Of a DNA stretch of 21,765 nucleotides, positions 38 to 15,886 are shown piece by piece (the first letter of the stretch is position 1; each line of letters begins with the position of its first letter). Origin of the DNA: a virus. The DNA lies in the IMG/VR virus record IMGVR_UViG_3300027911_000074, positions 1 through 21,765 of that record, one strand, 5' to 3'. A program made the position numbers and the translations under genes. The notes below the pieces were generated by a model that had not been told where the DNA came from, searched no databases, and worked only from the letters and a program-made list of their open reading frames with translations.

Positions 38-301
38 CTAAGCATATTTAGTCATTGAAGTTATGCGATCCACAATAGCCTGGGGAACACGCACAATTAC
101 TTCAGCTTCCCGTATGTATTTAACGTCGTACCAGAATTTCAATTTGAAACGTTTTCCCCAATTAGGTTCAGTTGTCTCTCTTACAATTTCAACCACTTGT
201 CTTTCATTGGAGTTGAATTGCCGGGTTGGGCGAGTCCACAAAGCGCCTATTGCTAAATTGTGGTCAGAACCAATAACTTGTATCTGGTCTTTACGCTGCA
301 T
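38..301 (-). CDS. conserved-looking hypothetical protein, 87 aa
   Basis: This is a small protein I do not recognise. It is rich in basic and aromatic residues in the middle (FKLKFWYDVKY) with a hydrophobic, Val/Ile-rich C-terminal third, and no cysteine cluster, signal peptide or membrane segment. The start ATG overlaps the end of the upstream 2H-phosphoesterase gene by 11 nt. An AGG about 5 nt before it can serve as SD, so the two are probably translationally coupled and co-transcribed. Function unknown; the context only says that it follows the putative internal head protein. Confidence 0.7.
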   Translation of the reverse strand: MQRKDQIQVIGSDHNLAIGALWTRPTRQFNSNERQVVEIVRETTEPNWGKRFKLKFWYDVKYIREAEVIVRVPQAIVDRITSMTKYA

Positions 302-1193
302 TTGCCTGTACGTACCTAGATTTTTTGAAACGTCGAGTTACATCCAATAGATCACCAATAGGCAAATTGACTCTATAAGCTTCTATCGCCCGGTAAGGAT
401 CACGATTCAGGATCGCCAACCAGCGGTGGTGACCATCCAGGATGTAATTGTCTTTGGAAATGATAACTGGTTTGTTTAGTGCTGGATGGGGTTCTCTGGT
501 CGAAAGGGTCTCGACTTTTTTCAAATTGATTTCGCTTTGAACCGACCGCAGGAGAGCGACCTGGACATCCATGAACTGGACAAAAATGCCCTGTGCTTCC
601 AACCAATCGATGAAAGCTAACTTGTCGGCTTCTGATATTTGCGGCATCTCTTCTCTCGGAACGTTGAGATGGTTCTGAGGAATGTAAATGCTAGGGACTT
701 CTTCAGTTTCTTCTTGTACGGAATTGATTGCTGCCCAGCCATCAATCATCGGGCGACATTGTTCTTGATCGAGTACTAGGAAACTAGGAGGAGGCTTTAA
801 TTCGGTCGGGTCGAACCATTCGCCCATGTTGTATGAGATACTGACATGCGGAATGAATCGAGGCCACTTACTGCGACCTCCCATGTTCATGGCTCTTTGC
901 CATTGCACCACTACCGGATCAGATTTGAATTCTACGACGAGAACATTGTTTAAAATGTTGATCTTGTACGACGCCGGATTGACCATCACAGGCGTGTTAT
1001 CAGGTACATAGCCAGGAATCGAGACTTCCGAGCAGACCACCGTACAATGAAGTTCGTTTGAGGAGACTGGGTTAGGGATGCGGTTTTCTTGCATCCAAAG
1101 GCTCATAAATTCTGCACTTTGAGCATTGAGCTTGCGATAGGAGTAAAGCCCGGTGTCAACGCTCTCGGCAATAAATTGTGCGTAAGTCTTCAA
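291..1193 (-). CDS. 2H phosphoesterase / ParB-like fusion with capsid-targeting N-terminus
   Basis: 300 aa in three parts. Residues 1-11 (MKTYAQFIAES) are almost the same as the capsid-targeting sequence of T4 internal proteins (MKTYQEFIAEA). They include an I-A-E site after which the T4-type prohead protease would cut (Glu10). Residues about 45-125 carry paired 2H-phosphoesterase motifs, H49-C-T51 and H116-V-S118, the fold used by the anti-CBASS nuclease Acb1 (T4 57B) and by RNA ligase-like 2',5' phosphodiesterases. Residues about 205-285 end in a ParB/sulfiredoxin-like motif, LDGHHR (252-257). The start is TTG at 1193. The frame extends upstream without ATG or GTG, but the targeting-sequence match fixes this start. 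Inference: a head-packaged, injected enzyme acting on cyclic nucleotides or RNA ends. Substrate unknown; DNA processing through the ParB-like part is also possible. Confidence 0.85.
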   Translation of the reverse strand: MKTYAQFIAESVDTGLYSYRKLNAQSAEFMSLWMQENRIPNPVSSNELHCTVVCSEVSIPGYVPDNTPVMVNPASYKINILNNVLVVEFKSDPVVVQWQRAMNMGGRSKWPRFIPHVSISYNMGEWFDPTELKPPPSFLVLDQEQCRPMIDGWAAINSVQEETEEVPSIYIPQNHLNVPREEMPQISEADKLAFIDWLEAQGIFVQFMDVQVALLRSVQSEINLKKVETLSTREPHPALNKPVIISKDNYILDGHHRWLAILNRDPYRAIEAYRVNLPIGDLLDVTRRFKKSRYVQANAA

Positions 1194-1212: not shown

Positions 1213-1220
1213 TATTTATC
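1213..1220 (-). promoter_or_regulatory. T4-late-promoter-like box (GATAAATA)
   Basis: The minus strand reads GATAAATA, 7 of 8 matches to the T4 late consensus TATAAATA. It ends 19 nt before the TTG start of the putative internal head protein, leaving room for a short leader and a weak GGGG SD. A late promoter would fit a head-packaged product. An 8-mer with one mismatch is weak evidence alone, and no late sigma factor is visible in the window. Confidence 0.35.
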
Positions 1221-1253
1221 GAGACCGTTTTTCCTTTCTTTAATCTACTACCT

Positions 1254-2995: not shown

Positions 2996-4567
2996 TTATA
3001 CCTTCAGTTTCTTTGCGCCTGCGGCTGCTTTGAAAGCGCTTTGTGGTTTGAAGCCATCCGCTTTCAACGGCGTCGTGTTGCGGCGTCGTTCTGCGGCTTC
3101 TTCTGTGCTTTTGAATGGGCGATCTTTTGTCGGTTTGTCGATGTCGAAAACTGGCCCGTCAGCTTCTTCTATTGCTAACGTAGGTGCGGCTTCCCCATCT
3201 CCAATGCTATCGATATCGTCATCTTGCGTGATGTCTTTTTGCGCCGACTCTTCGAGATTGAAAAGTTTCTGTTTGCTGCGATCAATTCCGACCACAAACT
3301 TGTTCATGAACTTTCCGTTTTCCTTGTTCCGCATGTTGACATCACCATGGCGGTTCTTGAGGATCTTGACGAGGAGTTGGTTCATACCTTTCAGTTCATC
3401 GCTGTTGATCAGTGCGAACATGAAATCGGCAGTTACCGGGAGACCAAATGATTCTGACGTGTTAGTCAAATCAGGATCGCTGTTATTGAATCCCGCACGA
3501 TTCATCTGGGTTGCTGACCAGATTGGCACATCAAATTCGACAGCCAATCCACGGAGTTCTTCCGCAATCGACTTGACCAATTCGTACATGCCGCCGCTGC
3601 TGCTGGCTTTCACCCGGCTAGATGCACAGATGTTCAAATAATCAATGAAAATTGCATCCGGTTTGAATTGTTTCTTCAGATTCAATTCATTGAGTAAATG
3701 GCGGAAGTGTCCTACGTGAGCCTGCGCCGTAGGATATTCCTTGATGATCAAAGTACCTTTGGTTCGTTCTTTGATCCGATTGATGTTCTTCTTGAACGAC
3801 TCTTTTGGAACGAAGGCTAGTTCATCTAGCGGGCGGTCCATTAGGTTCGCATCGATACGTTCTGCGATGCGCTCCTGGGCCATTTCCATCGTGATGTAAA
3901 GAACCTTCTTCCCTTGCATCAAGTAGTTGGCAGCAAGGTCGCACATGAACAGAGATTTGCCTACATTAGTTCCGGCGAGACAAATGTTCAACGTCTTGGA
4001 AGGAACACCGTTCTTGGTGATCATGTTCATGTAATCCAAATGGAATGGAATACGTGAATCAATCTTGTGATAAAACTCGTAGCGTTCGTCGGCATCTTCG
4101 AGATAATCGTGACCGACATGCGGGTCAAATGAGACCCCTAGAGCGTCTTGTAAAAGCTTGGGGATGATTCCCTTGTCCACCTTGGTGTTGGTGCCGTCTA
4201 GGATGGTTATGACCTCAAGAACGGCATTGTGAATGGCCCGCTCCTGACACCATTCCTCGGTTTTCTGGACCAACCATTCGATGTTGGGTTGTTCTGGTGT
4301 AACTTCCAGGGTGTTGAGGTATTCTCCGATTTCATCCAGGTCATCTTGGGCGACCCCGTGAGTACCTTCTAAGTCAATGAGTAATGATTCTTTGGTGGGT
4401 AAGGTGTTGAACTTGTCAATGAAGTCCTTGACTTTCAGAAAGATATTGCGTTCTGTCTTCGAACCTCTTCCATCAAAATATTCAGCGTTGATAAACGGCA
4501 GCACACGTCGCATGAACTGCTCATCTTGCATCAGACCTCTAAGTATAATTGATTCAATTCTATCCAT
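2996..4567 (-). CDS. replicative DNA helicase, DnaB/gp41-like
   Basis: 523 aa. The N-terminal half matches the primase-interacting region of DnaB-type helicases. The C-terminal RecA-like motor has Walker A AGTNVGKS (about 198-205), a following YITMEM strand, Walker B DAIFIDY (about 304-310) and a Q/R-rich sensor region (SATQMNRAG). It unwinds the fork as a 5'-3' hexamer on the lagging strand. The tail (about 430-523) is charged and low-complexity with DDDID and KADGFKPQSAFKAAAGAKK, perhaps a partner-binding tail. Start: ATG at 4567 has an excellent AGGA SD 7 nt upstream. An upstream TTG at 4591 would extend it eight residues but has no SD. T4 gp41 is 475 aa, so this one is somewhat longer. 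Confidence 0.95.
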   Translation of the reverse strand: MDRIESIILRGLMQDEQFMRRVLPFINAEYFDGRGSKTERNIFLKVKDFIDKFNTLPTKESLLIDLEGTHGVAQDDLDEIGEYLNTLEVTPEQPNIEWLVQKTEEWCQERAIHNAVLEVITILDGTNTKVDKGIIPKLLQDALGVSFDPHVGHDYLEDADERYEFYHKIDSRIPFHLDYMNMITKNGVPSKTLNICLAGTNVGKSLFMCDLAANYLMQGKKVLYITMEMAQERIAERIDANLMDRPLDELAFVPKESFKKNINRIKERTKGTLIIKEYPTAQAHVGHFRHLLNELNLKKQFKPDAIFIDYLNICASSRVKASSSGGMYELVKSIAEELRGLAVEFDVPIWSATQMNRAGFNNSDPDLTNTSESFGLPVTADFMFALINSDELKGMNQLLVKILKNRHGDVNMRNKENGKFMNKFVVGIDRSKQKLFNLEESAQKDITQDDDIDSIGDGEAAPTLAIEEADGPVFDIDKPTKDRPFKSTEEAAERRRNTTPLKADGFKPQSAFKAAAGAKKLKV

Positions 4568-4776
4568 TCTTTTTCCTGGCTGAAAAGCCAATTGTGTATG
4601 TCTTTCATCGCAAAAGTCCTGTACGCTTGTTTTTCGACATCGATAGCCTTGACCAAAGCCTGTCGTTCAGGATGGTACTCGGTGCTACCGACGTAAAATG
4701 TAAATGGCGGGCTGATTGTACGAATGGTCCTCTGCCCTTTCCAATTGGTATAATCAATGAGTATCAGGTTGCGCAT
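4531..4776 (-). CDS. conserved phage protein, WYL-like fold possible, 81 aa
   Basis: Begins MRNLILIDYTNWKGQRTIRT and continues through ISPPFTFYVGSTEYHPERQ to FAMKDIHNW. The I-Y-x-N...R-x-I-x-P pattern followed by GSTEYHPERQ and a final F-A-x-K-D-I occurs in short phage and bacterial proteins reminiscent of an isolated WYL-type ligand-binding module. WYL domains often bind nucleic acid or nucleotides, but function here is unknown. ATG at 4776 follows an AGGGA SD. Its 3' end overlaps the helicase start by 37 nt, and its 5' end overlaps the upstream gene by 23 nt. Confidence 0.75.
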   Translation of the reverse strand: MRNLILIDYTNWKGQRTIRTISPPFTFYVGSTEYHPERQALVKAIDVEKQAYRTFAMKDIHNWLFSQEKEWIELNQLYLEV

Positions 4777-5032
4777 AATTTCCCTGTTCAATGATGGCCA
4801 GCATAATGCCGCCGATCAGTTGATCGAAATCTTCGTTAATCATTTGCTCAGTAAATGTCTCGGGCACAGATACTATCTCGTAGTCGAATACAATTCGCTG
4901 TGACTCATCTTCCTGAACATTTTTCCCCACGTAAAGGAGGACATTCCGGTAAGGTTCCACTAGTAAGCGGACGGCACAGAAAGGTGTGTCGCTCTTTTCA
5001 TACCGGAATGTCTTCAAATACGATTCGTACAT
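4754..5032 (-). CDS. hypothetical protein, 92 aa
   Basis: Acidic small protein with a likely beta-strand core (FCAVRLLVEPYRNVLLYVGK) and a C-terminal helix (FDQLIGGIMLAIIEQG). I recognise no family. The ATG at 5032 overlaps the recombinase stop as TAATG, so translation is almost certainly coupled to UvsX. Position between recombinase and helicase suggests an accessory role in recombination or replication, but nothing in the sequence proves it. Confidence 0.75.
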   Translation of the reverse strand: MYESYLKTFRYEKSDTPFCAVRLLVEPYRNVLLYVGKNVQEDESQRIVFDYEIVSVPETFTEQMINEDFDQLIGGIMLAIIEQGNYAQPDTH

Positions 5033-6291
5033 TATTCTTCTTCGGCTTCGAACTGTTCTTCCATCTGTTCGACGGCACTCTCTACGTTGTCTTCGGAATC
5101 CCAGCCACTAGAATCTTCCTGATCGATTTCAAACACTTCATCGTCAGATTCAATCGGATCGAGAGGAGCTTCCTCGCCCTTTCCGAACAAGAACGCTTTT
5201 GCTACCATTTCTTCGAAAGCGGCTCGATTGACGGGCGTATCAAAGAAGTCCGCAGGCTTGGCTGCGATGTCTTTGCGAGAAGCTTGTTGCCCATCAGGGA
5301 AGGTGTATTCCTTTCCGACCATCTTAATCAGGCCGTACTTCTTTCCCAGGTCGAACAAACCGTAATATTGATCCAGGCCACGATCATGACGCAGGAGAAT
5401 GTCTACCTGCTTTCCGTAGCGAGTGAACCGACTCTTATCCAATGTTGCCGTAAGGATCGAACCCAGGACTTCTTTCTTGTCCTTTTCATCTCGGAACGAT
5501 TTCTTCGAAAGGAAAACGATGGTCGAAGCTGCGTACTTGAGACCACCACCACCGCTCATAGTCTTTGAAGGACCATAGGGATTCATCGAAGCGTAAGTGT
5601 GATTAGTCATTAGCAGAGCTACCTTTGCTTCGCCCAGCTTGATGGTAAGTACACGGAATAAACCACGGATCAAAGGTGTTCGAGTCATGTCCCTGGTGTC
5701 TTCGCCTTTCTTGTTCAGTTTGCCGGATTGTGTATCGTGCAGTTCTTTCAACGTCGAAAGATTTCCTAACGAATCCAGGACCAAGAACATAGGAAGACGT
5801 TGTGCTTCTGGCTTGGCAAGGTAGGCATCAATAAGATGGATGACCTTGTAACGGAAATCCTGAATCGTATTGACTCGTTGTTTGTGAACCCGGCTGGTAT
5901 CGATTCCACGATCTAACATCATCGATTCGGTAATTGCATCTTCGGAATCGAAATAAAAGACGTGACCTTTAGGATTGAGTTTGAGGAAGGTTGCGACCGC
6001 TTGAAGCGCAATGAAGGTCTTTCCAGTAGCTTCTTCGCCTGCCAATGCAGTGATCTTGTTGCCTGCAAATCCGCCGTCTAGCGAACCGGACAACAGGGCA
6101 TTAAGTGCCATCGATCCGGTGCTGAAGAAACTGGTTACCGCAACTTCATCCACCTTAGAAGCAACTGGAATATCGACTCCAGCAGCCTTCATGAGATCAT
6201 CAAAAAATGCACCTTCAGATTTCTTGTTCGTAGTTTTTGCCGCCGCTTTTTTAACGACCGCTTTCTTTGTATCTTCTTTCTTCTTTGGCAC
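5032..6291 (-). CDS. UvsX/RecA-type recombinase
   Basis: 419 aa. The Lys-rich N-terminus (1-25) precedes the RecA core. That core has Walker A GEEATGKT (85-92), a base-like Glu/Asp pair in FDSEDAI (114-120), Walker B FLVLDS (169-174), the L2-type N230-H231 and GGGGLKYAAS (247-256). It ends in a very acidic tail (about 380-419), as in RecA and UvsX, where it tunes DNA binding. The protein coats single-stranded DNA and exchanges strands for recombination-dependent replication and repair. Start is GTG at 6291 with an AGGAG SD 6 nt upstream. A promoter candidate lies about 35 nt upstream. Confidence 0.95.
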   Translation of the reverse strand: MPKKKEDTKKAVVKKAAAKTTNKKSEGAFFDDLMKAAGVDIPVASKVDEVAVTSFFSTGSMALNALLSGSLDGGFAGNKITALAGEEATGKTFIALQAVATFLKLNPKGHVFYFDSEDAITESMMLDRGIDTSRVHKQRVNTIQDFRYKVIHLIDAYLAKPEAQRLPMFLVLDSLGNLSTLKELHDTQSGKLNKKGEDTRDMTRTPLIRGLFRVLTIKLGEAKVALLMTNHTYASMNPYGPSKTMSGGGGLKYAASTIVFLSKKSFRDEKDKKEVLGSILTATLDKSRFTRYGKQVDILLRHDRGLDQYYGLFDLGKKYGLIKMVGKEYTFPDGQQASRKDIAAKPADFFDTPVNRAAFEEMVAKAFLFGKGEEAPLDPIESDDEVFEIDQEDSSGWDSEDNVESAVEQMEEQFEAEEE

Positions 6292-6326
6292 TCCTTTCTC
6301 CTGCCACTACTTCTGGCGCTAAATCT

Positions 6327-6354
6327 ATTACATCACGAATATGGATTTTGTCTA
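6327..6354 (-). promoter_or_regulatory. candidate sigma70 promoter of the recombinase gene
   Basis: TAGACA (-35, 5 of 6), 16-bp spacer, TGTAAT (-10, 5 of 6). The TAG of the -35 box is the stop codon of the upstream zinc-protein gene. The predicted transcript has a leader of about 30 nt with a proper AGGAG SD, unlike the near-leaderless promoters elsewhere in the window. Confidence 0.5.
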
Positions 6355-6639
6355 TAAAAGACCACCATAATAGTCACTCCACATTCCATCCCAATACTCC
6401 ATCCATTCTTCGGTACAATCGGGGCAAAGTAAAGGCTGTGGCTGGTTTCCGCTGGCGTACATAGTACGCACCGGGGCCTTCTCTAGCAGTGGATGAAACT
6501 GCTTACAATGTTCACATAATGGATTATCTAGCTCTGTCGAAGCGAACTCTAAAACGGATTTTCTGAAGTGATCCGCAAACAGAGTTTCCATCGGTCCAGG
6601 TCGTTCATCGAGTTCAAACAACTCATCCAGATCATTCAT
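6352..6639 (-). CDS. small zinc-binding protein, 95 aa
   Basis: Two CxxC knuckles, C42-E-H-C45 and C72-P-D-C75, separated by about 26 residues, make a likely single zinc ribbon. The C-terminus is striking for aromatic content (WMEYWDGMWSDYYGG). The N-terminus is acidic (DLDELFELDE). I chose the ATG at 6639, which overlaps the polymerase stop by 8 nt. Earlier in-frame ATGs at 6651, 6657 and beyond lie deeper in the polymerase gene and lack better SDs. Location between polymerase and recombinase suggests a replication accessory factor; function not known. Confidence 0.7.
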   Translation of the reverse strand: MNDLDELFELDERPGPMETLFADHFRKSVLEFASTELDNPLCEHCKQFHPLLEKAPVRTMYASGNQPQPLLCPDCTEEWMEYWDGMWSDYYGGLL

Positions 6640-9370
6640 CTTCTTCGCATTCATGTCCATCATATTCGTCATCTTCAGGATCAAGATCGTCATCCTGTTC
6701 GAGAGTCGGATCAATTAGGGTGACATTATTGTCATCATCGTATTCGAATAGGAATGAGATCGAAGCCCGTGGCTGGGTGTCCCATTTGATTGCATTCAGA
6801 ATGAGCATCAAAGGTTCAATGAAACTCTTCTTCCATTGCATTTCCCAGTCGATATATTCCTCGACACCAAACTCGGTCGGGAGCGTAGTAAGAAAAGCCA
6901 TCGCATTGACGCCGAACGGATTCGGTTCTCGAAGATAGAAGAATTTCATCTTCTCACCATCTTTGATTTTTGGATAGTGGCCGACTACTCCGTGTTGATC
7001 GATAAGTCTGTTATAGGTAAGGACCCCTTTGGTATGGAAAGGTGTTCCTTTGATGTATGTAGTATGCGGATGACCGTACTTTGTTAGGCCGTTGACACTC
7101 CTCGGGAAGCTGACATTTTCAATCGGCTGTTTGCGGAATTCGGCTTCAGTCTCAGAGACGAATTGGAACAAAGTCTGCTGGTCTTTTTCCATGACGATAC
7201 GGACAGCTTTCTCCATGGCGTCCCGACAGAACTTCGGCACAGTCGTCTTTTTAATCTCGACGCCCATGTACTTCAATTCGCCATTTGGCTTACGAATTCC
7301 TTCCTTGTCTCGGACATTGACGATGTAGCGTTTTTTGGCGGTCCAGATTCCCTTGTCACCGATGATTTCCCGGTTCATTGCCAAGTAACCTTTGCCCTCG
7401 GTGTTGGTAGCGGCATTCAAAAATCGCTCACTGACATAAGTGAATAACCGATCCAGTTCCGGCTGAATCATTTCTTTGCAAATCTTATCGACAAAGGCCG
7501 TCTTTTGCATCACGTCGCCTTCAGGATAGTATTTGTCCACTACCGATTTGAGGGTAATGTAAACCGAATCCGTATCCGAATAGACGACGAATTTTTGTCC
7601 TTCGGTTTTGAGCTTCCGATTCAGGAAGTCATTCATTCCCTGGCCGATGTATTGGATGAGGAACTGACCTGTTGTTGTGACCGCTTCTGCGTTTTGTACG
7701 TCGAAAAATCTGAAGTATTGGTTGCCCATAGCGCCGTAAAGTGAATTCAGGAGGATCTTGGTAGCGTGCTGCTTGAGATCGAAAATGGATTTTTCGGTTT
7801 CAAGTTCTGCTTTGCGAACTGGATCGGTACAGGTGTCAAGTTCTTTGACAGCCAGCTTCATGCGTTTCTTGTAAGCGACACGATTGTTGAAGAGTTCTTC
7901 AATCATGACGGAGTACAAGCTCTGAGGAGATTTCTTATAGAAAATAGCGTTCGCTGCGACCGTGACTTCATGCTCCATAAAATGCATGATGAGTTCATCC
8001 GACAAAGCCTGAGTAATGGTCGTGGGATTAACGTTCATCTTGCCTTCATCATCGGCGGTCACCAAATGAGAATTGATGTAAGATTGGTAACGACGCATTT
8101 CCGGCGTCAGTTCTTTCAATGGAATCTTGGTTTCCATTCCCATGTTCAGCGCCCGCATGATGTTTGGATAGAGCGAAACCACGTCGAGGGCGACGATCCA
8201 TTCGTACATGCCGGGAATCGGTTTCATGACAAAGGCACCGATGAATTGGGTGTTCTTGTCAACGTCCGATTTCTGAGGAACCACAATTCCTTTTTCTAAC
8301 AGGGTGTTGCAAATCAATGTATCCCAGGTCCGCACCTGAGACAAGACATCGACGTAATTGACTTTGGCGTGATAGGCAACCAATAACTGAAGCTCAATCA
8401 ACTTGCGTTTGAGATCGATGCGGTCTACCAGACGAACGTCGTGGATGTTGTACTCGACAAATTTTTTGAAGTTCTTTTCGTACAATTCCTGAAGCGTTCC
8501 GTACTCGCCGTAATCAATTTTGGCATCTTTCAATTCAACCTGAGCGATGTAATCCAGGCGATACGATTCACGAGGTTCAAGGACGTTCTTCTTGTAGATG
8601 AGAAGATAGTCGAGGATGCTAATGCCCGCCAATTCGTAGACGATCTCGGGCTTGTTGAAGATGTTGACGGTGCCTTCTTTTACGATGCCCCACGGAGACA
8701 TGCGCTTGACTTGGTTCTCTTCCAAGATGCGAGAGATTCGATTGACCAAGTACGGAATATCGAACATTCGAATATTCCATCCGGTTACAATATCCGGCTC
8801 CAGAGTTTCCCAGAGATCGAGGAACTGACATAGCAAATCAATTTCATCTTCGCATTGATGATATGAGATTTGACTATCGGGATGCTCTTGGTTGTAAGCA
8901 ACCTCATCGAACGGTTTGCAGGCGAAGACATGAAAGATGCCATCGAGCGAACTCTTTACGGTGATGGCTGTGACTTCGTTGGTGGCATCCTTGGCTTCGC
9001 AATAGCCATTCTTTGAATCGACCTCGATGTCGATGTTAGCTATAACTAGTTGGGATGACTTGTATTCGACTACGCCTGGGTAATTCTCATTTAGGTAAGC
9101 GTACTCGTAGCCTGTGTTACCATAAATGCTGAAGTTATCGACTTCACTGTATTTTTTGATGAACTGGTAGCAATCCCCCATCGTACCGGGATTAATTGGC
9201 TCGACAGGTGTCCCATCAGGGGCCTGGAACTTTTGGGATGACTTGTTGGAGGGAATGTAAAGGGTGGGTTTGTACTCGGTCTTGAATCTGCGACGTTTGC
9301 CGTCTTTTACTTCTCTTACATATAGGTAATTTCCACTGCGGAAAATATTCGTGTAATATCGATTACTCAT
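6632..9370 (-). CDS. family B DNA polymerase, T4 gp43-like
   Basis: 912 aa, close to T4 gp43 (898). Proofreading exonuclease: Exo I NIDIEVDS with D114 and E116, Exo II TGWNIRMFD (196-204), Exo III YNIHD (307-311). Polymerase: motif A LDVVSLYP (395-402), motif B KILLNSLYG (538-546), motif C YSDTDS (597-602), then KKRY (about residue 680). All catalytic aspartates are present, so it should be an active proofreading replicase. The C-terminus is very acidic (DDDLDPEDDEYDGHECEEDE). The start ATG has an AGAGG SD. It is the first gene of the minus-strand replication operon, opening from a divergent promoter region shared with the HAD gene. Confidence 0.97.
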   Translation of the reverse strand: MSNRYYTNIFRSGNYLYVREVKDGKRRRFKTEYKPTLYIPSNKSSQKFQAPDGTPVEPINPGTMGDCYQFIKKYSEVDNFSIYGNTGYEYAYLNENYPGVVEYKSSQLVIANIDIEVDSKNGYCEAKDATNEVTAITVKSSLDGIFHVFACKPFDEVAYNQEHPDSQISYHQCEDEIDLLCQFLDLWETLEPDIVTGWNIRMFDIPYLVNRISRILEENQVKRMSPWGIVKEGTVNIFNKPEIVYELAGISILDYLLIYKKNVLEPRESYRLDYIAQVELKDAKIDYGEYGTLQELYEKNFKKFVEYNIHDVRLVDRIDLKRKLIELQLLVAYHAKVNYVDVLSQVRTWDTLICNTLLEKGIVVPQKSDVDKNTQFIGAFVMKPIPGMYEWIVALDVVSLYPNIMRALNMGMETKIPLKELTPEMRRYQSYINSHLVTADDEGKMNVNPTTITQALSDELIMHFMEHEVTVAANAIFYKKSPQSLYSVMIEELFNNRVAYKKRMKLAVKELDTCTDPVRKAELETEKSIFDLKQHATKILLNSLYGAMGNQYFRFFDVQNAEAVTTTGQFLIQYIGQGMNDFLNRKLKTEGQKFVVYSDTDSVYITLKSVVDKYYPEGDVMQKTAFVDKICKEMIQPELDRLFTYVSERFLNAATNTEGKGYLAMNREIIGDKGIWTAKKRYIVNVRDKEGIRKPNGELKYMGVEIKKTTVPKFCRDAMEKAVRIVMEKDQQTLFQFVSETEAEFRKQPIENVSFPRSVNGLTKYGHPHTTYIKGTPFHTKGVLTYNRLIDQHGVVGHYPKIKDGEKMKFFYLREPNPFGVNAMAFLTTLPTEFGVEEYIDWEMQWKKSFIEPLMLILNAIKWDTQPRASISFLFEYDDDNNVTLIDPTLEQDDDLDPEDDEYDGHECEEDE

Positions 9371-9393
9371 CTGCCTCTTTGTTGAACTATCTT

Positions 9394-9421
9394 AGGTTAC
9401 CACGAGATGAAATCTTGTCAA
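9394..9421 (-). promoter_or_regulatory. candidate promoter of the DNA polymerase gene
   Basis: A perfect TTGACA (9416-9421) is followed after 16 bp by TAACCT (3 of 6). A better -10-like TAAGAT lies at 9389-9394 but leaves a 21-bp spacer. The leader that follows contains an AGAGG SD. The -35 is convincing, the -10 is not; an activator or a phage-specific factor may compensate. Confidence 0.4.
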
Positions 9422-9427
9422 CTCCGC

Positions 9428-9455
9428 TGGACAAAAATGAGATCCGTGGTATTCT
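9428..9455 (+). promoter_or_regulatory. candidate promoter of the plus-strand HAD gene
   Basis: TGGACA (5 of 6), 16-bp spacer, TATTCT (4 of 6) on the plus strand. The -10 ends 9 nt before the ATG at 9465, placing the expected start of transcription 2-3 nt before the start codon, with no SD between. It overlaps the divergent polymerase promoter region, so the two could interfere. Confidence 0.4.
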
Positions 9456-9464
9456 GAGAACCAG

Positions 9465-9983
9465 ATGAAAGTTTATGTTGATCTGGATCAAGTACTTGTC
9501 AATTTCTTGGCGGGCGCTAGAAAGGCTTTAGGAAAAGAATTTAACGACCCGTCTCTCGGCACCGACCCGGAAAAATTCAGGCACTTGTCCGATACATGTA
9601 TCAACTTTTGGCTCAACCTCGAATGGATGCCAGGAGCCGAATCTCTCTGGAATCAACTTCGGCAATACAATCCGTTCATTCTCTCTGCCACTCCTCCCGC
9701 TGACATTTACCCATCATGTCCCGCTGAAAAAATCCAATGGTGCATCGACAATTTAGGTATAACTAAGGATCGAGTCTTCATCGTCAGTCGGAAAGAAAAG
9801 AGAGAATTTTCTAATCCCGACAGTCTGCTGATTGATGACCACCCGACGAACGTAAGGGAATGGCGAGAGAACGGTGGAACTGCAATCTTACATCACACCG
9901 TCACAGAAACTCTCAATGAGATTACGCAGCTAGGACTATGGGATCTTCTATCCCTTCCTTCGTCATATCGTGCCAGTGAATGA
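9465..9983 (+). CDS. HAD-family 5'(3')-nucleotidase-like phosphatase
   Basis: 172 aa. HAD motif I is VDLDQVLV with nucleophile D6 and acid D8, motif II is LSAT (S74), and motif IV is LLIDDHPTNV (D124-D125). A KEKREF stretch (110-115) can supply the motif III lysine. The layout, with a W-L-x-L-E-W-M-P cap and a short product, fits the 5'(3')-deoxyribonucleotidase/C-type subgroup that dephosphorylates nucleoside monophosphates. Motif I has Gln9 where Gly is usual. It is the only plus-strand gene here. Its last 62 nt overlap the end of the convergent LpxH-like gene. An AU-poor hairpin (GGGAT, CTTCT loop, ATCCC, 9940-9954) lies inside its end. Confidence 0.85.
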   Translation: MKVYVDLDQVLVNFLAGARKALGKEFNDPSLGTDPEKFRHLSDTCINFWLNLEWMPGAESLWNQLRQYNPFILSATPPADIYPSCPAEKIQWCIDNLGITKDRVFIVSRKEKREFSNPDSLLIDDHPTNVREWRENGGTAILHHTVTETLNEITQLGLWDLLSLPSSYRASE

Positions 9984-10701
9984 GTTCCAACGAACCATCT
10001 TCAATTTCGACCACCGCACTTAACGATTCAATCCAGTCCCCACAGTTTACGTATTCAATTCCATCTTCCATATTGATGACTGCATTATGAATGTGCCCGG
10101 TGATAGCGCCGTAGCATTTTTTATGGCGGGCGTACTGAGTGACCGCAGTCTCAAAACTTTTGATTGCTGACAGCGCACGCTTCGTCTTCTTTTTTAGAAA
10201 AGCGGCTAGGGACCAATATCGTTTGAAACCCATTGCCATTCGGGTATGATGCAGGACCGAACTTAGCATGACAATACGGTCGTAAAGATGGCTCCCCAAA
10301 ATCGTAAGCCACTTAGGAACAAAATCAAAAACATCACCATGAAGAATGACGTATTTGTGGCTGGATGATGTCGTATAAAATGCTTCATCGACAATCTCAA
10401 TTTCGTCGCCAAAATTTAACGGGATGAAATGTCGGATTGGGTCATCGTGATTCCCGATGATGTAAGTGATCTTTGTCCCAAACTTCGCCATCTTTAACAG
10501 CCGCCGCAGGACCGCTGTACAATCTGGATTCCACCAGATTTTGTTCTTCATGGCGAACATGTCGAAGATGTCGCCTACCAGATACAGATGATCACATTCA
10601 ATCGATTTCAAAAACGAAAGTAACTGCTTCGCCTTACAACCTCGGAACCCCAAATGAAAGTCCGAAAGAAATACTGCTCGGTAGTGCGTTCGTTGTTTCA
10701 T
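9922..10701 (-). CDS. LpxH-like metallophosphoesterase
   Basis: 259 aa. All calcineurin-like metal motifs are present: D14-F-H16 (SDFHLG), GDIFD (D44), GNHDD (84-86), H121-G-D, and GHIH (202-205), followed by YVNCGDWIES, which is typical of the UDP-2,3-diacylglucosamine pyrophosphatase (LpxH) branch. LpxH hydrolyses a lipid A precursor in Gram-negative bacteria. A phage copy might alter lipid A synthesis or act on another pyrophosphate. A basic Lys-rich helix pair (about 165-185) may contact the membrane. Start is the ATG at 10701, overlapping the Nudix stop as ATGA. A longer frame to 10752 would lie inside the Nudix gene. Its 3' end overlaps the HAD gene on the other strand. Confidence 0.88.
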   Translation of the reverse strand: MKQRTHYRAVFLSDFHLGFRGCKAKQLLSFLKSIECDHLYLVGDIFDMFAMKNKIWWNPDCTAVLRRLLKMAKFGTKITYIIGNHDDPIRHFIPLNFGDEIEIVDEAFYTTSSSHKYVILHGDVFDFVPKWLTILGSHLYDRIVMLSSVLHHTRMAMGFKRYWSLAAFLKKKTKRALSAIKSFETAVTQYARHKKCYGAITGHIHNAVINMEDGIEYVNCGDWIESLSAVVEIEDGSLELIHWHDMTKEGIEDPIVLAA

Positions 10702-11138
10702 TGGTCGTGGAGTATCTCCCAAATCTGTTTCTGGCTCTCGTACAACAAACATAACAGCCCTTTATGAAACTGATATGAACGATTGTCTACCATTTCATAA
10801 AGTTGGTCGTAGGACACCCATTCGATGAAGCTGGTTTCCATGGCAAATTCAGGATCGGTCGGAGCCATCGTAAAAGGCTCTGGGACGATTCCCAAGAAGT
10901 TCTGGTAGGTGAACCCCGGAACCCGGTATTTGAGGGCGTGGCGAAGCTCTATTGGGCCGTCGTAGCCCATTTCTTCTTCGAGTTCGATCAGCGCATTCTC
11001 TTTGAAGCTTTTTCCGTCTTTCAACATGCCGCCGATGACGCCCCAACAATTTCCTTCTGGAATCTGCGGTGCCCGCCACGCTAGGCATATTTGCTTGGTA
11101 TTGTCTGCTAAGGGAAGTATTCCACTGGCTAGTTTCAT
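10698..11138 (-). CDS. Nudix hydrolase-like protein with altered box
   Basis: 146 aa. The Nudix box lies at about 36-59. The glycine pair and the IELEEEMG core keep the metal-binding glutamates, but the first conserved Glu is Lys43 and the conserved Arg of the R-E pair is Ile. The fold is otherwise typical, with an N-terminal strand (LASGILPLADN) and a C-terminal substrate strand (FIEWVSYDQL). Nudix enzymes hydrolyse nucleoside diphosphates linked to another group, such as ADP-ribose, NADH or caps. The altered box makes the activity uncertain. Starts and stops overlap both neighbours as ATGA, so it is part of the NAD-kinase operon. Confidence 0.85.
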   Translation of the reverse strand: MKLASGILPLADNTKQICLAWRAPQIPEGNCWGVIGGMLKDGKSFKENALIELEEEMGYDGPIELRHALKYRVPGFTYQNFLGIVPEPFTMAPTDPEFAMETSFIEWVSYDQLYEMVDNRSYQFHKGLLCLLYESQKQIWEILHDQ

Positions 11139-11638
11139 TTTGTATACCTTCTGAACATCTCGGCGTCGATTTCTTGGAGGGAAAATAGGTCTGCCGGGAA
11201 TTTCTCTCGCAACCGCAGTTCCGATCCGGTTACGAACAGGCCGACTTTCTCAGCTTGTGCCGCCAGGACTTGATAACCGAGAGTTTGAATGTTCCAGCAA
11301 AGTTTGCCGGATCGTTTATCTACCCAGACGCAGGTAATCGCCTCACCCCATTGATGCCAGGAAAACCCAGGAAGAGTATCAGTAACTAGGTTTGTTTCGT
11401 GTGCTTTAGCGCAGCGCATACACTCTGCCAAATAAGGAGCACCAGCTTTTTCTAAGGCGAGTGTTTTCAATTCAGCGTCAGTGACCGAACGACCTTGTTT
11501 CCAATGATTTGCCTGCTCTAACGGCGTAATGATAGTCGAAATTGACTCCATCTGGTGTCCACTTGCAGCGCAAGCAGCCAGAACGTCAATGACCTTTTTT
11601 CTAAAATCGGGAATGAGTAATGAAAGTTCAGAAGCCAC
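11135..11638 (-). CDS. M15 peptidase-like (VanY/L-Ala-D-Glu peptidase) protein, possibly inactive
   Basis: 167 aa. It has the scaffold of phage M15 peptidases: an EQANHWKQGRS region (41-51), LPGFSWHQWGEA (89-100) and a C-terminal GLFVTGSELRL. In active relatives as I recall them, HxxGxAxD provides a zinc His and Asp, and a later W-x-x-H/PHVQ segment provides a second His. Here His95 is kept, but the Asp position is Thr102 and the final segment (KFPADLFSLQ) lacks the His. It may therefore be a degenerate peptidoglycan-binding protein rather than a lysin. Start is GTG at 11638, 8 nt past the previous stop, with no clear SD. Confidence 0.7.
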   Translation of the reverse strand: MASELSLLIPDFRKKVIDVLAACAASGHQMESISTIITPLEQANHWKQGRSVTDAELKTLALEKAGAPYLAECMRCAKAHETNLVTDTLPGFSWHQWGEAITCVWVDKRSGKLCWNIQTLGYQVLAAQAEKVGLFVTGSELRLREKFPADLFSLQEIDAEMFRRYTK

Positions 11639-11646
11639 AACGGTAT

Positions 11647-11847
11647 TTACATTTGCATCTTTGAAGACGTGCGGCGATCTGTGACAATTAACTTACCTTC
11701 ATTTTGATGATACAGTTCAATCTGTTCTTCTCGCTGTAACTTGTCAGCGAGTTCCATTGAACTTTCCAAAGACTCCCCGCATTCACATTTCAGACGAGCG
11801 GATAGGGTATGGTGTTCCTTTTTGCAGTAGCGACAAGGAAACTTCAT
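11647..11847 (-). CDS. small zinc-ribbon protein, 66 aa
   Basis: The N-terminus carries C5-R-Y-C8 and C21-E-C23, a compact zinc knuckle, followed by a charged helix (SLESSMELADKLQREEQIELYHQ). Its start overlaps the upstream gene's stop as ATGA. Such proteins often bind nucleic acid or modify a partner enzyme; the function is not evident. Confidence 0.75.
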   Translation of the reverse strand: MKFPCRYCKKEHHTLSARLKCECGESLESSMELADKLQREEQIELYHQNEGKLIVTDRRTSSKMQM

Positions 11848-12038
11848 TTTTCTCTACTAAGCCAGTCGTACAATTTTATCGAATCATCTTCACTGAGGTC
11901 TTCCAGAACCCCGGTCATCTTGACTATGATTTTTTTGGAGGCCGCAACCAACATGATCTGGTAATCGTTACATGGGCCGACTAATCGCTGGGCGAACCCA
12001 CGAATCATGGAAGCTCGAAATTGATTATCGAGGGTCAT
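11844..12038 (-). CDS. hypothetical protein, 64 aa
   Basis: Small alpha/beta protein with a central strand pair (YQIMLVAASKKIIVKMTG) and an acidic C-terminal helix (LSEDDSIKLYDWLSREK). I do not recognise a family. The ATG at 12038 overlaps the upstream stop as ATGA. A longer frame reaching 12074 lies within that gene and is less likely. Confidence 0.7.
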   Translation of the reverse strand: MTLDNQFRASMIRGFAQRLVGPCNDYQIMLVAASKKIIVKMTGVLEDLSEDDSIKLYDWLSREK

Positions 12039-12253
12039 ACAAGATCTTTCGCATCCCGGTGAAGTGCGAGACAAGTTCCATCGGGATGGACCGCTACAAA
12101 TCGCTCGGTCGGATTGATGACGATCACCATAGCATTCTCGGAGACCACCAGAAACTTTTCATGGTTGTCTACTTCTCGAATGATCAGGCAAACTTCATCA
12201 TATCGATGAGCATCCTCTAACGCTTTGGCTTTGGCTTCGGTGTAAGTCATCAT
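12035..12253 (-). CDS. hypothetical protein, 72 aa
   Basis: Starts MMTYTEAKAKALEDAHRYDE, followed by repeated strand-like segments (VCLIIREVD, KFLVVSENAMVIVI, RFVAVHPDG). It looks like a small beta-sheet protein; no family recognised. The ATG at 12253 overlaps the NAD-kinase stop as ATGA, so its translation is coupled to NAD kinase. Confidence 0.7.
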   Translation of the reverse strand: MMTYTEAKAKALEDAHRYDEVCLIIREVDNHEKFLVVSENAMVIVINPTERFVAVHPDGTCLALHRDAKDLV

Positions 12254-13047
12254 ACGAGTTTGTACCCCCATCCTAGTTTCTTTTGTAAGATTTCGAAATA
12301 GCTCAGATCCGGGTTTACGACTTCAACAGAAGTTCCATCGAACTTGATGAGAGCGTCCTGTCCTTGCAGTCGATACCCTATCTGGCCGTCGATAGTCGCA
12401 AACAAATTGCAGTCGTCAGATTTCACTCTAAGCGTGATCGGTTCCGTTCCGTATCGAGCCGGGAGAATCAAAGGCCGTTGTGAAAGTCCCTGCGGGCAAA
12501 TCGGCGTCACGACAAAAAGTGAAATGCAGTTGGGATGAACGATAGGACCGTTCGCAGAGAGGTTGTAAGCTGTAGAGCCTGTCGGCGTCGAAACAATCAA
12601 GCCATCAGCCCGGTAATGGCATACAAGCTCATCTCCAGCGTAAAGGCTCAATTCGACTAAGCGGGCAAGACCGTCGCCAGTCGGAAAATCTTTGATTACA
12701 ACATCGTTCAAAGCTGTGAATTTTTTGTCGCCAATGGTGAGTTCCAACAGCTTACGGACAGTAGAAGTAAAATGACCTTCAAGAAAGGCGTCGATGGCTT
12801 GTCGGTAATTCTCTTTCGAGCACGACGTAAGAAATCCCAGGTGCCCGGTGTTGATGACGAAGATTGGATATTGATGTGCTTGACGAGATGCGCCTAGAAC
12901 GCTCCCATCTCCACCCAGGACGACAGTGAACCTGCATTCATCATCCCAAACTTCAACTAGCTCAATACCTTTTTCTGCAAAGTATTTAATGACATCGTAG
13001 TAAAAGAGAGCGGTTGATGTCTTTGCGAAAATGAAACCTTTTTTCAA
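12250..13047 (-). CDS. nadK: NAD kinase
   Basis: 265 aa. The family hallmarks are clear: GGDGS (45-49), NTGHLGF (66-72), the LNDV segment (113-116), and the long DGLIVSTPTGSTAYNLSANG block (148-167) that binds NAD and forms the nucleotide pocket. It phosphorylates NAD+ at the 2' hydroxyl with ATP to give NADP+. Shorter than E. coli NadK (292 aa) but with all motifs, so probably active. Start is TTG at 13047 with an AAGGA SD about 6 nt upstream; no in-frame ATG is nearer. It lies 22 nt after a tRNA gene and heads an overlapping operon that ends with the Nudix and LpxH-like genes. Confidence 0.95.
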   Translation of the reverse strand: MKKGFIFAKTSTALFYYDVIKYFAEKGIELVEVWDDECRFTVVLGGDGSVLGASRQAHQYPIFVINTGHLGFLTSCSKENYRQAIDAFLEGHFTSTVRKLLELTIGDKKFTALNDVVIKDFPTGDGLARLVELSLYAGDELVCHYRADGLIVSTPTGSTAYNLSANGPIVHPNCISLFVVTPICPQGLSQRPLILPARYGTEPITLRVKSDDCNLFATIDGQIGYRLQGQDALIKFDGTSVEVVNPDLSYFEILQKKLGWGYKLV

Positions 13048-13069
13048 AGCATATCCTTTTCTTGAGTTT

Positions 13070-13145
13070 TGGTAGCCCTACGAGGACTCGAACCTCGATT
13101 CTAGGTTTAGAAGACCTATGCCTTATCCTGTTAGACGATAGGGCC
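13070..13145 (-). tRNA. tRNA-Arg (anticodon UCU)
   Basis: A complete 76-nt cloverleaf. The 7-bp acceptor stem (GGCCCTA with TAGGGCT) has a G-U wobble at its first pair. The D stem is GTCT/AGGC with a GG-containing loop, and the anticodon stem is TAGGT/ACCTA with loop CTTCTAA and anticodon TCT. The T arm is CGAGG-TTCGAGT-CCTCG. The 3' ACCA is encoded in the DNA. It would decode AGA arginine codons. It sits between a small hypothetical gene and NAD kinase and is probably processed from their common transcript. Confidence 0.93.
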
Positions 13146-13153
13146 GTCTGTAT

Positions 13154-13435
13154 TTAGGCCGCAACCGAAAGAGGCTGCGACTTTAACCACGTCACGATAC
13201 TCCAATTCAGAATATCGCTAGAGAAGGTCGGAACACCAGGATAGTTTCCTGCCTTCGCACTTAAAAGAGTCCGTCTTAGGCCCACAGGCCATTCGCCTTG
13301 CTCCGATTGCAGGAAGCCAAGCCGTTGCCGTTCTTGATCGACGGTCAAGCCCCAGCGCTTTGCGCCCGGTGAAAGCTCTTGATCGCTGTAAGTTGTCACT
13401 TGCCGTTTGATTGTCGTCAGTGTGAGAGGTTCCAT
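13154..13435 (-). CDS. hypothetical protein, 93 aa
   Basis: Begins MEPLTLTTIKRQVTTYSDQE and carries a Gly/Arg-rich middle and the segment FSSDILNWSIVTWLKSQP near its end. No family recognised. I take the ATG at 13435. The open frame runs up to 13474, but that stretch is the promoter. The -10 box of this promoter ends 10 nt upstream, and there is no SD. Confidence 0.65.
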   Translation of the reverse strand: MEPLTLTTIKRQVTTYSDQELSPGAKRWGLTVDQERQRLGFLQSEQGEWPVGLRRTLLSAKAGNYPGVPTFSSDILNWSIVTWLKSQPLSVAA

Positions 13436-13445
13436 AACATCATCA

Positions 13446-13474
13446 ATTAGATCACAGATGAGATGACATGTCAA
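13446..13474 (-). promoter_or_regulatory. sigma70-type promoter upstream of the 93-aa gene, tRNA and NAD kinase
   Basis: TTGACA (perfect), 17-bp spacer, TCTAAT (5 of 6). The -35 box starts 3 nt after the TAG of the upstream gene. The expected start of transcription lies about 3-4 nt before the ATG at 13435. It would drive the hypothetical gene, tRNA-Arg and the NAD-kinase operon. Confidence 0.65.
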
Positions 13475-13477
13475 CTA

Positions 13478-13720
13478 CTATCCAACAACAAAAACTCGGT
13501 GAAGTTTATCCTCGATCAGAACGGTCCCGCAATAATCTTTCTCTTCAAAACACGGCATCAGAGATAAGAAGTCCATAGAGAGAATTAACGCTTCCTCGGT
13601 CGTACAAGGGACCAGGACAACGTAGTCATAATATCTCTCTAGTTGACTCGGAATGAAATCCCGCAGGACTTCATTTCGAAACGCTTCTTTGTCTGTCAGA
13701 ACAATACAACAGGCGTTCAT
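13478..13720 (-). CDS. hypothetical protein, 80 aa
   Basis: Small alpha/beta protein (MNACCIVLTDKEAFRNEVLR..., YDYVVLVPCTTEEALILSMD, then YCGTVLIEDKLHRVFVV). It has four cysteines but no CxxC pair. No family recognised. The start overlaps the preceding stop as TAATG. Its stop lies just before a promoter, so it may be the last gene of its transcript, but no terminator hairpin is visible. Confidence 0.7.
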   Translation of the reverse strand: MNACCIVLTDKEAFRNEVLRDFIPSQLERYYDYVVLVPCTTEEALILSMDFLSLMPCFEEKDYCGTVLIEDKLHRVFVVG

Positions 13721-14100
13721 TAGCAGCCCGCCTTTCTCGACCGATAATCAGTCCACAAAGGGTTCTTGACCTCGGGATCAAAGTTATCGACTACTTTCCA
13801 GCCGATGTTTTCGCAGGCGTAAGCCGTCGCCCAGCACTCTTCGTCAATGATGACGATGATGTCACCGACGCTGACCGACCGATTTGCGTAGTCGGCAGGA
13901 TGAGCGATGTTGAACGTTTCGAAAAGGTCTTCTAAAACTTGACGCCTGCACCGTACTGATCCAGGTATATCCTCGTCGCCAGTGACGGTTCCAGAGTAAA
14001 CCTGTTCCATATGTGCGCCGGGAACGTACCCGTCAAAATGGGAGTATTCCCTGGTCGGGTCGTAAGTTTCATTGAGGAAAATTTGGTATCGGTAATTCAC
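13720..14100 (-). CDS. YodL-like domain protein, 126 aa
   Basis: The segment ANRSVSVGDIIVI followed by an aromatic-rich end (CWATAYACENIGWKVV) matches the pattern of the YodL-like domain (D/N-R-S-L/V-S-V-G-D-V...GF), seen in mobile elements and phages, with unknown function. The N-terminal 50 residues (NYRYQIFLNETYDP...) look like a beta sheet. Start is GTG at 14100 with an AAAGGA SD at good spacing. It follows the small membrane protein by 4 nt. Confidence 0.7.
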   Translation of the reverse strand: MNYRYQIFLNETYDPTREYSHFDGYVPGAHMEQVYSGTVTGDEDIPGSVRCRRQVLEDLFETFNIAHPADYANRSVSVGDIIVIIDEECWATAYACENIGWKVVDNFDPEVKNPLWTDYRSRKAGC

Positions 14101-14104
14101 GAAG

Positions 14105-14383
14105 TTATCCTTTCAAGATGCAATAAACAAGGCCACCAACGATGGCAGTTCCGACCACGGCACCGACAATGCCGATGATAAGGCCAATGGCAATACCAGC
14201 CTTTGCAATAGGGCCAGCGACCGCATAGACGGCACGAGAGGTCGGATCGAGGGTGTCATTCACCACCGAATCGCCTCGGAAACCGAAGAGAATTTGATGT
14301 TGTTGCTCCAAAGACAATGGTTCTGATGCGTCCAGGTCAATGGAATCGGGATCTACGTTGATAAGGGCTTGAATTTCGTCCAT
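14105..14383 (-). CDS. small membrane protein with glycine-zipper segment, 92 aa
   Basis: Residues 1-50 are acidic and soluble (EIQALINVDPDSIDLD). Residues about 56-90 are hydrophobic with repeated small-x3-small spacing (AGIAIGLIIGIVGAVVGTA, then IVGGLVYCIL), long enough for one long or two tight membrane helices. There is no cleavable signal. Holins, pore formers and superinfection-exclusion proteins have such sequences, but I cannot choose among them. It has its own strong promoter, whose -10 box ends 5 nt before the ATG, and no SD. Confidence 0.75.
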   Translation of the reverse strand: MDEIQALINVDPDSIDLDASEPLSLEQQHQILFGFRGDSVVNDTLDPTSRAVYAVAGPIAKAGIAIGLIIGIVGAVVGTAIVGGLVYCILKG

Positions 14384-14388
14384 GATTC

Positions 14389-14417
14389 ATCTTACCAGGA
14401 TTTTGGTAAAATGTCAA
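14389..14417 (-). promoter_or_regulatory. sigma70 promoter of the membrane protein gene
   Basis: TTGACA, 17-bp spacer, TAAGAT (4 of 6). Only five bases separate the -10 box from the ATG at 14383, so transcription should start at or within a base or two of the start codon. It forms part of the 26-bp repeat shared with the promoter at 17054-17082. Confidence 0.7.
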
Positions 14418-14436
14418 GTAGACGTATCTAGGCCGT
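14411..14436 (-). repeat. 26-bp direct repeat, copy 1 (promoter -35 and gene end)
   Basis: These 26 bases are identical to 17076-17101, in the same orientation. Each copy covers the last two sense codons (Thr-Ala) and the TAG stop of the upstream gene and ends in the TTGACA -35 box of the next promoter. A partial third version (shared TCTACTTGAC) lies at 14658-14667. Confidence 0.85.
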
Positions 14437-14625
14437 CCACTTTCGATTGGAGAGGTTTAGCTTGACGATGTAAGGGAGTTTCTTCCACGAAAGGGAAGCT
14501 CTAGAGCGGGATTCACTGATGACATCGAGCATCTTCTCCCGGCCAAATTGATCTGCCTTGGTCCACTTATCCTGTGCGGAAATGACCACGGTCTTTTGTT
14601 GTTCCATAACTGCGTATGCTGACAT
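14428..14625 (-). CDS. hypothetical protein, 65 aa
   Basis: Basic small protein (MSAYAVMEQQKTVVISAQDK..., SRSRASLSWKKLPYIVKLNL). No family recognised and no motif seen. It has its own promoter, with the ATG 9 nt after the -10 box, and no SD. Its last codons and stop lie in the 26-bp repeat. Confidence 0.65.
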   Translation of the reverse strand: MSAYAVMEQQKTVVISAQDKWTKADQFGREKMLDVISESRSRASLSWKKLPYIVKLNLSNRKWTA

Positions 14626-14634
14626 TCTATCTAT

Positions 14635-14663
14635 ATCTTATCCGGGTTTGAAACCAAAGTCAA
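14635..14663 (-). promoter_or_regulatory. sigma70 promoter of the 65-aa gene
   Basis: TTGACT (5 of 6), 17-bp spacer, TAAGAT. The TGA stop of the upstream gene is inside the -35 box. The start of transcription is predicted about 2 nt before the ATG at 14625. Confidence 0.6.
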
Positions 14664-14923
14664 GTAGATGCACCTAAATTTTCATCTTCCCCGTCGTCCT
14701 CTTCGTTCTGAGGTTCATACGGGCCGAAAATGCTTTCTGACTCTGGATTGGCATCGGAGAAGGGCGGATCAATGAAATCTGCACACTGCATTAGCAAGAA
14801 CGCAAGGTGTTTGGCGCTTTCTGCATTCATTGTAACCATCTGATCGATCACTAAAAAATGAACAGCAACATGCCTACTTTGGTCAGGCCATTCGATGATT
14901 TTGATTTCTAGTCCGGTCTTCAT
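14660..14923 (-). CDS. hypothetical protein, 87 aa
   Basis: Two predicted strands (LEIKIIEWPDQSRHVAVHFLVID), then a helix (SAKHLAFLLMQCADFI), then an acidic disordered tail (NEEDDGEDENLGAST). No family recognised. The stop codon doubles as part of the next promoter. CAGG directly abuts the ATG, too close to act well as SD. Confidence 0.65.
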   Translation of the reverse strand: MKTGLEIKIIEWPDQSRHVAVHFLVIDQMVTMNAESAKHLAFLLMQCADFIDPPFSDANPESESIFGPYEPQNEEDDGEDENLGAST

Positions 14924-14941
14924 CCTGATGAATATGTAGCG

Positions 14942-15316
14942 TTATGCTGCATTCACCAAAGTCTTAGCCGGGAGTAGAATAGAAGCAACTTCATAGCAGC
15001 GAGAATTTACAGGCATGAAACGAGAATTGCGTCTCGCCTGGAGCCGATGTAATTGATCGTCATCGTAAGCGGTAATGACAACAATTTGATTGGCGGGTCC
15101 ATGCCAGCGACAGACAATAGCGCCTCCGTGAACTAGCAAAAGAAGCATCTTCTTTTCTTGAAGAGTATCTTCGACCGTAAGCAGGCGAACGAAAGATCCT
15201 ACCGAAGGAAATTCAAAGTCAGCCGGGAGCCGGGTTTTCATGCGTTCGACAAAGTGATCCGTAAAAATGAACGACACGGTTTGAGGTTTTTTATGGTTGT
15301 TGAGTTGTGGTGTCAT
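14942..15316 (-). CDS. hypothetical protein, RelE/DUF4258-like pattern possible, 124 aa
   Basis: The segment FTDHFVERMKTRLP (18-31) and the later GGAIVCRWHGPANQIVVITAY (about 64-84) recall the His...ER...R start and the closing strand of small RelE-like or DUF4258 toxins, which are RNases. The match is loose and no partner antitoxin is visible. Its start overlaps the ligase gene end by 26 nt, with a GGA about 8 nt upstream. Confidence 0.6.
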   Translation of the reverse strand: MTPQLNNHKKPQTVSFIFTDHFVERMKTRLPADFEFPSVGSFVRLLTVEDTLQEKKMLLLLVHGGAIVCRWHGPANQIVVITAYDDDQLHRLQARRNSRFMPVNSRCYEVASILLPAKTLVNAA

Positions 15317-15839: not shown

Positions 15840-15886
15840 CTTACCTTCGAAAACTTTAGTCGAAGGGAGCCGCCGATCATCATCCG

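Follow-up and report, generated by a model that had tools for sequence, protein, structure and literature searches.

In case of phage T4, the capsid-targeting sequence (CTS) of internal head proteins has been dissected with amber-suppressor mutants, according to which residues 4 and 7 mainly serve targeting and residues 8 and 10 processing (reviewed in PMC9026906), and the T4 ADP-ribosyltransferase Alt is packaged and ejected (PMC9026906). T4 also encodes Acb1 (gene 57B), which degrades the signals of the cyclic-oligonucleotide-based antiphage signalling system (CBASS; PMC9117128). When particles of Vibrio phage 6E351A were analysed by mass spectrometry, Acb1 was detected in them, and the authors proposed its immediate deployment (PMC12028318). 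Furthermore, 2H and ParB/sulfiredoxin (Srx) domains have been predicted in injected “polyvalent” proteins, in which the 2H domain possibly degrades defence nucleotides (PMC5512222), and the injection of such 2H/ParB proteins is an idea already known. Neither a T4 CTS on Acb1 nor an Acb1-ParB fusion was found in the literature searched. Here we describe a gene that appears to combine both, encoded on a 21,765-base piece of the IMG/VR virus record IMGVR_UViG_3300027911_000074 (the window), which represents an incomplete genome. We consider it likely that this gene encodes a virion-packaged, injected anti-CBASS effector with a T4-type head-targeting leader, whereby we infer its packaging, cleavage and injection as well as its substrate and what the ParB-like half does. 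The phage is T4-like, as judged from the DNA polymerase, UvsX and gp41-type helicase encoded in the window, and its polymerase is about 39-41% identical to cyanophage polymerases and to that of the contig G009.

The translation of positions 1193-1161 on the minus strand yields the leader MKTYAQFIAES, which is identical to MKTYQEFIAEA of IPII and IPIII, as read from the T4 genome, at M1, K2, T3, Y4, F7, I8, A9 and E10 (8/11), and the four residues that matter in the T4 mutants, Y4, F7, I8 and E10, are all among these. A position weight matrix built from 55 T4-family leaders assigns 25.8 bits to this sequence, a score that is reached by none of 35,274 internal-methionine 11-mers and by none of 980,600 shuffled N-termini, while the runner-up among the 321 candidate starts of the window scores 4.3. 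Leaders ending with IAES are known among T4-family internal-protein-type genes (MKTYQEFIAES, MKTFKEFIAES). As far as sequence can tell, the resemblance to the T4 CTS is beyond chance. A first-pass annotation of this DNA had noted the eight-position match including the Ile-Ala-Glu protease site, had read it as the capsid-targeting sequence of an injected effector and as the only such start in the window, and had described the cargo as a fusion of a 2H phosphoesterase with a ParB-like domain; the match, its uniqueness and the fusion hold, and a targeting leader of the T4 type, I-x-E cleavage site included, is supported by the sequence. The annotation did not mention that the start codon is a TTG, at position 1193. 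Between the upstream stops and the first Acb1 strand (GLYSYRKL), there is no other ATG, GTG or TTG, and this TTG is the only standard start that leaves the enzyme fold whole; it places the leader at the extreme N-terminus. Non-ATG starts are apparently also used for the NAD kinase (TTG) and uvsX (GTG) genes of the window. AlphaFold predicts a short helix at residues 4-11, ahead of and outside the Acb1 core; the predicted local distance difference test (pLDDT) score of residues 1-10 averages about 71. As the alignment with the phrog profile of the Acb1-type family starts only at residue 11, the leader can be regarded as an addition to the enzyme, and leaderless Acb1 homologues start near residue 12 of the window protein. 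One other candidate, the start MNYRYQIFLNE of a YodL protein at 14100, fits a loose leader pattern; without the MK[TS][FY] opening and without a place among the best-scoring starts, it was judged a chance match. This protein (13723-14100, GTG start) contains a YodL-like domain (PF14191), which is also listed among the injected polyvalent proteins.

The 2H part of the cargo can now be specified. Residues 14-154 are predicted to be an Acb1 domain, i.e. an anti-CBASS 2H phosphoesterase of the T4 57B type, as they match PF23474 with E=4.6e-19 (69 bits, with a curated cut-off of 27) and the structure 7t26 with E=1.3e-10, and the superposition of the predicted structure with 7t26 gives template modelling (TM) scores of 0.77/0.86 (E=3e-11). 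The catalytic tetrad of FBB1 Acb1, H44/T46/H113/T115 (PMC9117128), maps to H49, T51, H116 and S118 in an alignment of 29 sequences, and the HxT/HxS arrangement is thus retained. An Acb1 profile was required to recover Acb1 homologues, since scans of viral contigs with the full protein or its Acb1 half yielded ParB-domain matches or nothing, and hence no full-length close relatives. In no phage isolate does a match extend over 80% of the fusion, and PADLOC and NCBIfam assigned no family.

The ParB-like half is predicted with a pLDDT of 88.5, and its top Foldseek matches are sulfiredoxin and ParB (probability 1.00, E of about 2e-3, TM scores of about 0.4-0.56). The conserved arginine of the ParB/sulfiredoxin superfamily is present in its DGHHRW-type motif, and by analogy with this superfamily the domain probably binds or hydrolyses nucleoside triphosphates (NTPs) or nicks DNA. 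As a mixed alignment of Acb1 and ParB-like sequences misaligned the domains, it was replaced by two separate alignments. The DGHHR-type motif that marks the ParB tail is absent from all Acb1 homologues inspected in viral contigs, and matches of the ParB profile to Protein A among PDB entries were disregarded as spurious. ParB-like proteins of other phages (loci L063, L069-L071, L076 and L078-L080) open with leader-like sequences such as MKHIKSYDSFITEA, MKSFAAYFKRIDEI and MKSFKDYCVISRLIEHA, and because of this the ParB half itself may be a recurrent head cargo. At L040 (7913-8521) and at L060 (3003-3614), proteins that bear a leader and have a DIDDTLF start resembling haloacid dehalogenase (HAD) phosphatases lie directly upstream of ParB-like genes and are possible further injected enzymes; at L006 and L011, a similar HAD-phosphatase-like domain is fused to a ParB-like domain.

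A late-promoter core upstream of the TTG suggests that the gene is expressed late. Late promoters follow TATAAATA in T4 and NATAAATA in cyanomyoviruses (PMC2984593), and ATAAATA occurs a single time in the whole window, both strands counted, at 1213-1219 on the minus strand as part of GATAAATA. In T4, 26 of 65 ATAAATA sites fall into small windows round gene starts, which together cover about 7.5% of the sequence. In the relative G002, 10 of 20 sites are near gene starts, including those of the gp21 gene and of one leader-bearing ADP-ribosyltransferase. ATAAATA is palindromic when reversed, so that reversal is no control; other AT-rich 7-mers served instead, and the permuted 7-mers were mostly less concentrated near gene starts. 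A transcript with its 5' end just downstream of the core would rule out upstream translation starts.

Features of the Acb1-ParB gene (positions in the window) and leaders of Acb1 proteins at other loci
Feature	Position	Strand	Basis or remark
Whole gene, 300 aa: leader, Acb1 and ParB-like domain	291..1193	-	translation
CTS-like leader MKTYAQFIAES, TTG start	1161..1193	-	prohead protease predicted to cut after Glu10 (codon 1164-1166)
Acb1 (anti-CBASS 2H phosphoesterase) domain, predicted, residues 14-154	732..1154	-	Pfam PF23474, PDB 7t26
First catalytic motif H49-C-T51	1041..1049	-	alignment, H49 and T51 invariant
Second catalytic motif H116-V-S118	840..848	-	alignment, H116 invariant; Ser replaces Thr, which also occurs in other homologues
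ParB/sulfiredoxin-like domain (phrog_2859 family), residues ~168-297	303..692	-	phrog match E=3.8e-28
DGHHRW motif, residues 253-258	420..437	-	invariant in alignment of 40 homologues
T4/cyanophage-type late promoter core GATAAATA (NATAAATA)	1213..1220	-	last base 19 nt upstream of start codon
Paired in-frame stops 5' of gene, bounding the reading frame	1245..1250	-	sequence
L098 Acb1 leader			MLSFKEFLQEK
L138 Acb1 leader			MIQTFKEFLIEK
L145 Acb1 leader			MQTFKEFLIEK
L149 Acb1 leader			MKTVKEFLTEE
L152 Acb1 leader			MIKFSEFLKEQ
L158 Acb1 leader			MKSFKEFIMEQ

The window protein is not the only Acb1 with such a leader. Among 44 Acb1 loci inspected, a strict leader was found on Acb1 at six loci besides that of the window, representing at least four lineages (L098/L138/L145, L149, L152 and L158); as background, 39,224 candidate starts contain 118 distinct matches to a closely similar leader pattern, genuine internal proteins included. 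A tree built from the enzyme domain requires five changes of the leader label, although well-supported branches by themselves force only two, and leaders on Acb1 were therefore probably gained or lost repeatedly. At L158, uvsX and gp41 are followed by a leader gene (MKTFKEFIVEG), a leader-like gene (MKTFRQFNEA) and the leader-bearing Acb1 gene, an order that echoes uvsX-gp41-...-Acb1 of the window, and gp41 is 53% identical. At L152, Acb1 is among three consecutive leader genes. In T4, the Acb1 gene adjoins ipI, and in several Straboviridae relatives leader proteins come directly after Acb1. In the T4-like contig G002 (168 kb, near-complete), to which L138 belongs, leaders are present on Acb1 and also on three proteins of the ADP-ribosyltransferase family PF03496, as judged by profile match; all three are encoded in one region (124995-128479), with the late promoter core CATAAATA upstream of one of them, and look, by sequence, like multiple Alt-type injected effectors. 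Among isolates, CTS-like or partly CTS-like Acb1 starts occur in Aeromonas phage Ahp1_CNU-2021 (MKTFSQFCENKQG), Citrobacter phage Ci1 (MKTFAQLVEELKG) and the Pseudomonas phages Astolliot and Milchi (MNFKEMLPFLIEG and MNFREMLPFLAEG), and the Acb1 starts of T4 (MMEFKDFSTGLY) and Cronus (MNNFKEFSTGLY) resemble shortened leaders. The GAP161/RB43-type Acb1 (MKSFLEVAKPVVD) aligns from residue 1 but has no cleavage site and was not counted as CTS. In the genus of 6E351A (Schizotequatrovirus), Acb1 starts with MKLSKFLESQ (KVP40) or MKLSTFLESQ (D482), at most a shortened leader; the particle association of Acb1 in 6E351A may therefore be due to a weaker signal or to contamination. It is an evenly balanced question whether T4-like phages recurrently pre-load their heads with Acb1 as a nuclease against CBASS signals, with a CTS carried by Acb1 repeatedly and perhaps ancestrally, of which T4 MMEFKDFS and KVP40 MKLSKFLES would be shortened remnants, and with the fusion to a ParB-like NTPase or nuclease creating a two-domain injected effector in the window. 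The L091 locus contains another nucleotide-processing fusion, an Acb1 with an N-terminal Nuc_deoxyri_tr2 domain (9512-10396).

The mechanism that we propose for the window protein would begin with its late synthesis as an internal head protein. The first 10-11 residues would recruit it to the prohead core via residues 4 and 7, and a gp21-type phage protease would remove the leader after Ile-Ala-Glu10. The mature Acb1-ParB protein would then be packaged with the genome and enter the cell with it, where the Acb1 half could hydrolyse cyclic oligonucleotide (CBASS-type) signals before any new phage proteins appear, and the ParB/Srx-like half would supply a second activity, either NTP-binding or nuclease. 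The gp21-like protease and the further leader proteins for which the first-pass annotation had suggested a search do exist in relatives: a gp21-type prohead protease was found in G002 (E=1.5e-42), G003, G009 and G011, and G002 carries the leader proteins described above. The window together with a 3.3-kb extension, still an incomplete genome, contains no gp21, no scaffold and no second leader protein, and this weighs against the proposed injection, as do several other points. Most Acb1 homologues, including that of T4, have no clear CTS, and the closest Acb1 (L091, 34%) is leaderless and fused to a deoxyribosyltransferase-like domain. The gene is surrounded by replication genes, its ribosome-binding site is a weak GGGG purine run 5' of the TTG, and a lone ATAAATA core could arise upstream by chance, with a frequency of a fraction of a percent per given gene. 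Moreover, a scan with the DNA polymerase found just one near-identical contig, which spans 3719-19370 of the window in the compared part and a flank past the right end and does not include the Acb1-ParB gene, and the locus is thus unconfirmed by a second assembly.

What alternatives exist for the injection of the protein? The leader could be a real head-targeting signal on a protein that serves only in the head, in core assembly or DNA condensation, or simply rides along, and the anti-CBASS function would matter only for protein made during infection. The head-assembly defects of T4 IPIII mutants (PMC9026906) would fit, and T4 uses its own Acb1 without a clear CTS, but the catalytic residues are retained in the window protein, and the leader-bearing proteins of G002 are Alt-class enzymes, which act in the host, so that we regard a purely structural role as unlikely. 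The leader could also be a relic that once targeted the enzyme, which now would be made in the cell and be neither packaged nor cleaved. The patchy presence of leaders, with five changes on the tree, the shortened-leader look of T4 MMEFKDFSTGLY and Cronus MNNFKEFSTGLY and the weak TTG start are in line with such a decay, which nevertheless appears distinctly improbable, as every CTS position of functional importance is intact and the late-promoter core is present. That the first residues belong to the enzyme or to a longer N-terminus and resemble a leader only by chance is hardly credible: the reading frame is open for 17 further codons upstream and the start is non-AUG, but about a million control trials gave zero equal scores, no standard start codon exists upstream, a transcription start just past the promoter core would exclude upstream starts, and leaderless homologues begin near residue 12.

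CBASS responds early in infection, and its outcome may therefore depend on the timing of an anti-CBASS enzyme. If real, the targeting tag would explain how Acb1 can enter virions, it would make the timing of counter-defence testable through loss of 11 residues, and uncultured T4-like phages could be searched by a simple sequence rule for further injected anti-defence enzymes. Foreign proteins are already loaded into heads with the T4 tag, which makes the hypothesis experimentally accessible in laboratory E. coli. The window contains further genes of potential relevance to defence. A nicotinamide adenine dinucleotide (NAD)-related set in 12253-21327, with NAD kinase (12253-13047), NAMPT (17096-18643), a CTP_transf-like adenylyltransferase (18911-20161) and a Nudix protein (20368-21327), resembles the NARP2-type route of NAD+ rebuilding and could counter NAD-depleting defences, and a protein with an RNA ligase domain (PF09414, 15294-15839) is a possible RNA-repair counter-defence factor. 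A GIY-YIG/NUMOD3 homing endonuclease is encoded at 1647-2360, directly 5' of the small open reading frame that precedes the Acb1-ParB gene.

How does the window protein compare with the known systems? With T4 IPI, IPII and IPIII it shares the N-terminal leader of 10-11 residues with positions 4, 7, 8 and 10, the I-x-E site, the small residue 11 and the late promoter core, and in T4 Acb1 is encoded next to one of them, IPI. The T4 internal proteins are small (IPI inhibits a type IV restriction enzyme), whereas the cargo in the window is a two-domain enzyme of 300 residues. T4 Alt is a head-packaged enzyme that is processed by gp21 and injected, as is predicted for the window protein, but it belongs to another enzyme class, has a propeptide of about 7 residues and modifies host proteins instead of destroying an alarm signal. 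The Acb1 enzymes of T4 (57B) and FBB1 (PDB 7t26/7t27) have the same fold, HxT/HxT(S) tetrad and sequence family; they are single-domain proteins without a clear CTS, to which the window protein adds the leader and the ParB-like domain. In case of Vibrio phage 6E351A, the likeness lies in the occurrence of Acb1 in particles and its proposed immediate action; that Acb1 has no ParB domain, and the available part of PMC12028318 discusses no targeting signal. Polyvalent injected proteins such as P1 DdrB (PMC5512222) have other architectures, e.g. MuF or portal fusions, and do not lie behind a T4-type CTS, but they share with the window protein the presence of both domain classes in predicted virion-delivered proteins.
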